A stretch of 42,797 bases of DNA from Chitinophagales bacterium (GTDB taxonomy: Bacteria > Bacteroidota > Bacteroidia > Chitinophagales > JADIYW01): the NCBI GenBank assembly GCA_019694955.1, contig JAIBAX010000040.1:1-42797 (forward strand), in the 5' to 3' direction. The stretch's first letter is position 1; each line of letters opens with the position of its first letter. This document shows, in pieces, positions 28,742-29,464 of the stretch. The notes beneath the pieces were generated by a model. The model was not told the DNA's origin. It worked only from the letters and a program-made list of their open reading frames with translations, and did no database searches. Position numbers and translations under genes: made by a program.

Positions 28742-28926
28742 TGGTAACCTGAGCGGGATTCGAACCCACATTCCCATTCGGGCAGTATGGCTGTAAATAC
28801 GCTTCCCTACACTCGGTCAAAAGTTTTGGTGCACTGTAAACTCTACCCATCATAGACGGGGATATCCATACACACTACGGTTAGTAATTTTTCCGCTACT
28901 TTTCCTTTTAAGTTACCAGGTCAAAT
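28742..28926 (-). ncRNA. tRNA-like element 5 of the Ro60-linked array (terminal, split or enlarged)
   Basis: At the 3' end is a perfect T-arm (28753-28769, loop TTCGAAT), then TCAGGTT and ACCA (28742-28752). At the 5' end GACCTGG (28920-28926 region) can pair with TCAGGTT over all seven positions with two G-U pairs. It is followed by TA and a D-arm-like ACTT-AAAAGGAA-AAGT with GG in the loop. Between the two halves lie about 100 extra nt, including a type II tRNA-like stretch (CCGAGTG-TAGGGAAGC, then GCCCGAATGGG as a variable-arm hairpin). UUUACAG occurs twice; it is the reverse complement of the tyrosine tRNA loop CUGUAAA. It could be a decayed tRNA, a tRNA with an insert, or a Y-like RNA. 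Confidence 0.5.
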
Positions 28927-28969
28927 AAAGCACACTAGAAGAACTGTACTTTTTCAATTAAATAATCAG

Positions 28970-29054
28970 GGCGACAAGCGAAAAAAGACCATTCCGGGAG
29001 ATCGAAATCAAAACCGGTTAATCGTGTAATCGAAGTAACTCTTTTCTACGGCAC
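28970..29054 (-). ncRNA. tRNA-like/Y-like RNA element 4
   Basis: Transcript sense is minus. It begins with the conserved core CGTAGAAAAGAGTTACTTCG (29031-29050), continues with a CCGG-closed arm (28994-28997 with 29014-29017) holding TTTCGAT, and ends with GGTCTTTTTTCGC and CGCC. AAAAGA in the core can pair with TCTTTT near the 3' end to close the element. The T-arm is poor compared with elements 1-3, so this copy may be degenerate. Confidence 0.5.
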
Positions 29055-29100
29055 CTGACAGGGATTGTTTTGATAATGAAGCAATAATATTCGAATTGAG

Positions 29101-29196
29101 CAACGGGGCTGTCTTGCCGGAGTCGAACCGGATAACCTTGCCAACTGGCTACGTTATTCCTCCCCAAAGTGACGAAGTAACTCTTTTCTACGGCAT
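29101..29196 (-). ncRNA. tRNA-like/Y-like RNA element 3 (D-arm directly followed by T-arm)
   Basis: The conserved core is at 29173-29192. A canonical D-arm (minus-sense TAGCCAGTTGGCAAGG, plus positions 29136-29151) is joined by 8 nt to a canonical T-arm (29117-29131, CCGG stem, loop TTCGACT). No anticodon arm is present. GGGG (29162-29165 complement) can pair with CCCC (29105-29108 complement) as an outer stem. This is a tRNA elbow without an anticodon, consistent with a tRNA mimic rather than a decoding tRNA. Confidence 0.6.
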
Positions 29197-29217
29197 TCAT
29201 TAAGGTATGCGCATGCA

Positions 29218-29297
29218 GGCGAAATGCAAAAAGAGACCAATCAGGAATTGAACCTGTAGAAGCAAACCAAATGCGAAGTAACCCTTTTTTACGGCAC
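29218..29297 (-). ncRNA. tRNA-like/Y-like RNA element 2
   Basis: The core is at 29274-29293, with AAAAAAGGG in place of AAAAGAG. A T-arm, CAGG-TTCAATT-CCTG, lies at 29242-29256. The 3' part GGTCTCTTTTTGC ends in TTTCGCC. The changed core still pairs with CTCTTTTT through a G-U pair, so the closing stem is kept although the sequence differs. No D-arm is recognised. Confidence 0.55.
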
Positions 29298-29333
29298 TAT
29301 ACGCGCAATTTATCAAAATTATACAAGGTAAAA

Positions 29334-29464
29334 GGCGAAAAGAGACTGTATCTTGTTCTACCAACTGAACTACATTTCCCATTTTTATTTTCTTCGGGGA
29401 AATGACGGGACTCGAACCCGCGACCCAGGCATTAAGAGTGCGAAGTAACTCTTTTCTACGACAC
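29334..29464 (-). ncRNA. tRNA-like/Y-like RNA element 1 with permuted tRNA order
   Basis: Transcript sense is minus, starting 75 nt after the Ro60-like stop. Order: core hairpin (29438-29464); T-arm (29405-29421, loop TTCGAGT); CATTTCCC (29397-29404 complement); a 16-nt loop; GGGAAATG (29373-29380 complement), exactly complementary to CATTTCCC; a D-arm with GTTC/GAAC stem and AGTTGGT loop (29354-29372); and CAGTCTCTTTTCGCC. The acceptor-like stem is thus closed by a loop and the T-arm precedes the D-arm, as in a circularly permuted tRNA. The 3' CTCTTTT (29338-29344 complement) pairs with AAAAGAG of the core (29449-29455 complement), closing the molecule. Confidence 0.7.

Follow-up and report, generated by a model that had tools for sequence, protein, structure and literature searches.

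The window, a stretch of 42,797 nucleotides (nt) of a contig from a Chitinophagales bacterium (JAIBAX010000040.1), carries an array of four small RNA units downstream of a gene for a homologue of Ro60. Most probably these units are four Y RNAs, which have one stem in common, show different heads and belong to an operon concerned with tRNA damage; we give this explanation as a whole a probability of about 0.75. The identification of the units as Y RNAs is its best supported part and very likely. It is firm with regard to the architecture of the units, from which binding to Ro60 is predicted. The role of the operon in tRNA damage, deduced from the neighbouring genes and from work on Salmonella (PMC7790460), is likely to a lesser degree.

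In the original prediction, made from the sequence of the window, a 20-nt core occurring four times was described for the interval 28742-29464. On the minus strand, the core is exact at 29441-29460, 29173-29192 and 29031-29050, and a fourth copy with two mismatches is located at 29274-29293, so that the number of four holds if two mismatches are permitted; the spacings of 167, 101 and 142 bp were given correctly. None of 100 dinucleotide shuffles contained a match, and a pattern permitting the two variants detected only these four sites in the organism's own genome. The quoted unit ends (GTCTCTTTTCGCC, GGTCTCTTTTTGCATTTCGCC and GGTCTTTTTTCGCTTGTCGCC in units 1, 2 and 4) are present, but according to model matches all four units reach past them. 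A T-arm-like stem-loop had been proposed to follow each core; a T arm is clear in units 1 and 2 as well as within the unit 3 head, whereas unit 4 has no canonical T arm. The part from 28742 to 28922 has to be removed from the array, as it is a different RNA.

Related units were collected from a comparison set consisting of the best 80 of 435 relatives of the TROVE protein from genome contigs. A unit parser, which discarded candidates with a motif below 11/14 or a sub-threshold fit, yielded 519 units in 78 of the 80 loci and the window; the short contigs L024 and L062 are without units. At least four units were present in 75 of the 80 loci (median 6, maximum 12). Several copies in a row, regarded as unusual in the original prediction, are therefore the rule at TROVE loci of Bacteroidota. 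The order within a unit is S1, U, G, Y, CGU, S2, UUACUUCG, head, S2', about eight bases ending with UURC, and S1'. The core represents the 5' strand of the closing stem in each unit, and the 5' and 3' ends are joined by a long bulged stem, as is characteristic of Y RNAs. Of the eight bases of UUACUUCG, only those at positions 2, 4, 6 and 7 are nearly invariant.

The paired percentages of the parser are inflated because it selects the best pairing; the swap test, the test of the Y-R pair and the separate alignments are free of this effect. Own partners paired better than swapped partners, with a mean of 14.05 versus 11.30 for S2 (standard deviation of the mean 0.11) and 10.24 versus 7.08 for S1 (0.09). 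The Y-R pair, which is ignored by the parser, covaries (C-G 231, C-A 4, U-G 35, U-A 236), also in 179 dereplicated units (C-G 81, C-A 2, U-G 10, U-A 77; p 2e-34). The stem therefore consists of S1, one bulged U, two further pairs (G-C and Y-R), an internal loop (CGU/NNNNUU) and S2, followed by UUACUUCG. Of the separate alignments, A4 contains minimal units (20 rows; made from A3 by leaving out L060:10454 and L075:7467), A1 class B units (25 rows) and A2 class A units (19 rows). Paired cells amounted to 86.8% in A4 (62.1% in shuffled alignments), 97.1% in A1 (83.0%) and 94.2% in A2 (80.7%), with covariation scores of 0.683 (0.218; slides at most 0.195), 0.523 (0.238) and 0.476 (0.208), respectively. 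Both values exceeded those of all 500 shuffles and all slides in each alignment, although structures derived from the rows favour themselves over slides. For further pair types in A4, 49 of 500 shuffles equalled the real value. Covariation in homologues, suggested earlier as a check, is thus strong.

Models R1-R3, built after removal of near-identical units by similarity, contain no sequence from the window. All four window units were recovered by R2, with unit 3 as the best match, and by R3, with unit 1 as the best match (Table 1); R1 recovered three and missed unit 3. The next-best match of the models in the window (E 0.25, R3) overlaps the different RNA mentioned above. No Rfam family was detected in the array at gathering score, and YrlA matched unit 1 on its head only, with 34.4 bits at a relaxed threshold (gathering score 69). 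In eight further loci YrlA gave no match at gathering score. The putative family is described by R1-R3, whereas YrlA in Rfam does not cover its stem consensus.

The heads were assigned to classes by a regular expression. Class A (114 units, including unit 1) possesses a T arm, an acceptor-like helix and a D arm and corresponds to a permuted tRNA without anticodon arm; the T loop reads TTCRA in 114/114 and the D-loop pattern occurs in 112/114 of these units. This is the permuted domain of the YrlA type, which in the window is found in unit 1 only (T arm 29405-29421; acceptor-like helix and D arm 29352-29404; anticodon arm absent). Class B (60 units, including unit 3) has a three-way-junction head in which a closing helix is combined with two hairpins, one containing a bulged A and one resembling a T arm; in unit 3 the closing helix is GGGG/CCCC and the bulged hairpin is long. 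Heads of this class are kept across genera. Class D (137 units, including unit 2) shows a T arm without D-arm pattern, and class d (5 units) the D-arm pattern alone. No head type was recognized under this rule in the 203 units of class E, including unit 4, and those with inserts of about 165-172 nt were probably mis-parsed.

The T and D arms resemble those of tRNAs, and the 23-nt T arm of unit 1 has the same sequence as the T arm of the organism's own tRNA-Asp, which would be expected if the units were decaying tRNA genes or tRNA-derived debris. Nevertheless, such an origin is extremely improbable, as closing stems covary and a non-tRNA motif is shared across 519 units, the anticodon arm is replaced in an orderly manner, and R2 has no match in 377 TROVE-negative genomes. 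Ordinary broken tRNAs were rejected on the same grounds. Decoding tRNAs had been rejected from the beginning, and indeed ARAGORN detected no tRNA in the window and Rfam gave no tRNA match there.

Like known bacterial Y RNAs, the units are located beside a TROVE/Ro60 gene. A motif search (TGYCGT, gap, TTACTTCG; at least 12/14 positions) over the 80 TROVE loci gave 545 matches in the orientation of TROVE and 28 in the opposite one; 523 of the 545 follow the TROVE stop codon at a distance of 0-4 kb. Among 395 genomes of the same class, 18 are TROVE-positive; R2 (E 0.001) had matches in 16 of them but in no TROVE-negative genome out of 377, and closer local searches revealed units in all 18. In one of them (L164) the array is about 25 kb away from TROVE, and in another one it is on a different contig. 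In other classes of the phylum, units occurred within about 1.5 kb in 10 of 14 TROVE genomes, in one of them weakly. The units were thus confined to TROVE-positive genomes among the 395 searched, and together with the Y-type fold, the covariation and the recovery by models free of window sequence this supports their earlier designation as Y-like RNAs. A TROVE-protein match was present in merely 6 of 99 near relatives (own genome counted), and the locus is therefore patchy. In two near relatives with TROVE at only 31-33% identity, G063 showed two weak matches and G086 none. The own genome encodes one TROVE protein.

Almost all units have the orientation of the coding strand and are placed between TROVE and the genes downstream of it, and in the window a hairpin is located behind the TROVE stop codon. 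This arrangement would also suit stems that act in cis within the operon mRNA, in processing, stability or attenuation, and are not free RNAs. This explanation is improbable: class A retains a tRNA elbow and class B is conserved across genera, neither of which is needed by a processing signal. In addition, units were found in 14 of 20 TROVE loci of a viral contig collection and lie upstream of TROVE in 11 of the 20 (L206, L207, L209, L215, L218 and L220-L225), and the distance in L164 argues against it as well. Several of these viral contigs carry many tRNAs (24 in L222, 25 in L224). A terminator function of the hairpin was also considered and rejected. The window copy has no U tract, and a run of at least six opening brackets was obtained in 71 of 80 loci versus 176 of 240 random stretches, which by this measure is only weakly above chance.

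Several observations weigh against four Y RNAs in a tRNA-damage operon. Folded singly, the window units are no stabler than shuffles (z -0.38 to +0.31), and the minimum free energy structure of unit 3 is devoid of the closing stem. In the stretches scanned, the YrlA gathering score is not reached, the best scores being 38.5 (L076), 37.1 (L071) and 34.4 (window). The TROVE protein diverges strongly from canonical Rsr (33 bits with the NCBIfam equivalog NF041674, cut-off 900). Furthermore, for most Chryseobacterium loci the queries used detected no repair gene in the stretch. Among 20 array stretches of other genomes, 11 hold at most one tRNA gene, and the window has none according to ARAGORN. 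Minimum free energy of single sequences was discarded as a line of evidence (z was close to 0 in the units, -1.4 over the whole stretch and -0.2 in the second RNA described below).

Table 1. Features of the window in and around the Y RNA array.
Feature	Position	Strand	Basis
Y unit 1, stem and permuted tRNA-like head	29321..29471	-	R3 122.9 bits, 3.4e-23; R1 3.2e-12
Y unit 2, stem and T-arm-only head (T arm 29241-29257)	29212..29304	-	R1 6.9e-8; R2 1.3e-5; R3 1.8e-5
Y unit 3, stem and class B head (29105-29165)	29074..29203	-	R2 99.1 bits, 2.8e-22; A1 covariation
Y unit 4, stem and short head without canonical T arm	28964..29061	-	R1 7.8e-12; R2 6.8e-8; R3 2.2e-7
Perfect hairpin GGTGTGATGG...CCATCACACC	29494..29523	-	between TROVE stop and unit 1; no U tract behind
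Second RNA, tRNA-like, not a Y unit	28742..28922	-	7-bp acceptor, D arm, T arm, 3' CCA in the window; about 130 nt between D and T arms
Ro60 homologue (TROVE and vWA), 505 amino acids	29539..31056	-	Pfam TROVE 1.3e-29, vWA_Ro60 1.4e-5
S24/signal-peptidase-like small protein, open reading frame of 118 amino acids	28362..28718	-	Pfam Peptidase_S24 8.6e-8
T4 Rnl1-type RNA ligase	27335..28462	-	Pfam RNA_lig_T4_1 3.2e-17; PDB T4 RNA ligase 1 8.8e-19
Nucleotidyltransferase, RlaP-like	26676..27338	-	Pfam NTP_transf_2 1.5e-4, RlaP 1.3e-4
Polynucleotide kinase-phosphatase	25799..26674	-	Pfam HAD_PNKP 7.1e-47; PDB Pnkp1 2.1e-69, T4 PNK 1.4e-41
WYL-domain regulator, divergent	31277..32290	+	Pfam WYL and WCX

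The gene upstream of the array encodes, as had been proposed, a Ro60 homologue with TROVE and vWA domains. It belongs to Pfam PF05731 (104.1 bits, curated cut-off 23) and is most similar in the PDB to 9l5y/9kop, "TROVE domain-containing protein" (5e-28), followed by Rsr (2nvo, 8e-5) and Ro60 (1yvp, 0.0016). Within 104 stretches, in which the contig present twice (L075 and L158) and the window were counted, WYL was found in 37, RtcB in 33, PNKP in 9, Rnl1 in 7 and RlaP in 5, with RtcB, Rnl1 and RlaP of the relatives identified by Pfam. A WYL homologue is located divergently upstream of TROVE in 36 of the 103 other stretches. This regulator is kept in Flavobacterium, Pedobacter and others and is a candidate for the sensor of the locus. 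Homologues of the S24-like protein occur near TROVE in L044, L074 and L075. Judged from these sequences, the layout of predicted Y RNA arrays beside Ro60 and RNA-repair genes is conserved across Bacteroidota. At a distance from the locus, a Bacteroidales small signal recognition particle RNA was detected in the window (40197-40303, minus strand; Rfam RF04183, 101.3 bits).

The second RNA shows 70-75% identity over about 180 nt in related loci, and nhmmer detected 16 copies at 15 distinct places of the searched loci, on either side of TROVE. Its 7-pair acceptor, D arm, T arm and inner helices covary: 98.1% of the cells are paired versus 87.5%, two-sided changes occur at 21 pairs versus 7.1, and the covariation score is 0.376 (slides at most 0.075). 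Rfam gave only a weak, sub-threshold match to a tmRNA T arm. A core pattern of this RNA was matched eight times in 345 class genomes. Five of the matches belong to TROVE loci; a sixth adjoins a WYL homologue where both TROVE and units are missing, and a seventh adjoins a tRNA cluster; the eighth, inside a coding frame, was not confirmed by nhmmer. The second RNA is classified as a predicted conserved tRNA-like RNA of about 180-200 nt with a large conserved insert, linked to TROVE, WYL or tRNA clusters.

ARAGORN was applied to 25 of the 80 genome-contig loci. Besides calls overlapping Y units, 20 stretches from 19 genomes contained 7-28 tRNA genes in seven cases (L173, L165, L095, L094, L171, L174 and L168), 1-3 in five and none in eight; in the first group diverged tRNA genes are interleaved with Y units or adjoin them. 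In G396, 28 of 61 tRNA matches are located at the Ro60 locus, and in G096 12 of 47, one of them overlapping a Y unit. These spare tRNAs share 62-80% identity with chromosomal tRNAs of the same anticodon where a comparator was seen, which applied to 6/14 and 13/28 calls, the chromosomal tRNAs having been fetched in part only. In the own genome, an odd tRNA call with a two-base anticodon was obtained beside a tRNA-Val call (L204, 1380-1453, minus strand).

Binding to Ro60, transcription and function of the units are inferred, and a mechanism can be proposed as follows. The four Y RNAs would each be held by the neighbouring Ro60 homologue via the shared stem, and each would present a different head. 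The operon would most likely answer tRNA damage, in that the kinase-phosphatase and a ligase, of T4 type in the window and RtcB in many relatives, repair broken anticodon loops by healing and sealing, with Ro60-Y RNA particles working beside these enzymes. In the tRNA-mimicking heads the elbow is retained and the anticodon arm is replaced by the presumed Ro60 stem. Such heads may capture or occupy readers of the tRNA elbow, for example decay machinery of the PNPase type, modification enzymes or an attacking nuclease, and several heads could provide one Ro60 with several partners. The different Y RNAs of animals are likewise thought to give Ro60 different partners. In some relatives, diverged spare tRNAs are added to the locus.

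The studied role of bacterial Y RNAs is the tethering of Rsr to PNPase (PMC4726728; PMC8394870). The units could therefore be purely RYPER-like Ro60-PNPase tethers for RNA decay, with the repair genes as chance neighbours. This is rather unlikely, since RNA-repair ligases from two unrelated groups are found next to the array repeatedly, as are spare tRNAs and the second tRNA-like RNA, and several head types do not match a single tether. Y RNAs that steer Ro60 in an answer to tRNA damage are thus preferred. A wider interpretation is tentative and has somewhat less than even odds: Ro60 loci of Bacteroidota may be emergency tRNA kits, comprising an inducible operon with a divergent WYL regulator, 4-12 Y RNAs that have their own stem consensus and various tRNA-mimicking heads and steer one Ro60 ring to several partners, enzymes for healing and sealing, a second set of up to 28 diverged tRNAs in some species, and the new tRNA-like RNA of about 180-200 nt, which may be derived from tRNA and serve as sensor, adaptor or decoy.

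In animals, it has long been asked why a single Ro60 requires more than one Y RNA. The loci described here offer a bacterial system with up to twelve Y RNAs, in genera including Flavobacterium and Chryseobacterium, in which single heads could be deleted, and the models allow this Y RNA family to be found and named. Sets of spare tRNAs and the second RNA tie Ro60 to tRNA damage via genome layout, independently of the work on Salmonella, and open the function of bacterial Ro60 to direct tests. A role of bacterial Ro60 particles in triggering lupus autoimmunity is also under discussion (PMC11277228). Tandem or multiple bacterial Y RNAs of this kind or tRNA sets at Ro60 loci were not found in publications as far as titles and the openings of abstracts go, subscription literature being mostly outside reach. 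The main texts of the transcriptome papers on B. thetaiotaomicron and F. psychrophilum do not mention Y RNA or Ro60.

Among known systems, YrlA (Rfam RF02553) of the rsr-yrlBA-rtcBA operons is similar in that it adjoins a TROVE gene and an RNA ligase, its ends form a stem, and its permuted tRNA-like head of T, acceptor and D arms recurs in class A units, where the Rfam model aligns. In contrast, the array scores remain below gathering (at best 38.5 of 69), many of them on the head alone, the stem consensus differs, and other head types are present. Salmonella carries two Y RNAs, yrlB and yrlA (PMC9879122), compared with at least four units in most of the Bacteroidota loci, and its operon is induced by tRNA fragments (PMC7790460). 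The vertebrate Y RNAs Y1, Y3, Y4 and Y5 are also paralogues with one Ro60 stem and different loops; their Ro60-binding stem is described as a helix of seven base pairs that contains a single bulged cytidine and, on the opposite side, a bulge of three bases (PMC4726728). The units resemble them in the single bulged nucleotide, but it is U instead of C, and their heads are tRNA-like. A UUAUC loop motif is conserved in vertebrate Y RNAs and nematode sbRNAs (PMC4726728); that UUACUUCG, just past the upper stem, might be related to it is a lead only.

For the spare tRNAs, the closest published parallel seen is the trn operon of Anabaena, which holds a second set of 26 tRNAs. This set is normally silent and linked to an RNA ligase at the level of regulation, as it is repressed by TrcR along with rtcB (PMC10272220). 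This operon is borne on a megaplasmid, and the word Ro60 is absent from that paper, whereas the Ro60-Y RNA locus of some relatives, though not that of the window, itself contains the spare tRNAs. An RNA-repair platform is mentioned for jumbo phages that encode a TROVE protein (PMC7824862). The kinase-phosphatase and the Rnl1-type ligase downstream of the array finally resemble tRNA repair as in phage T4 (Pnkp and Rnl1); in the window, however, they belong to a bacterial operon together with Ro60 and the putative Y RNAs.
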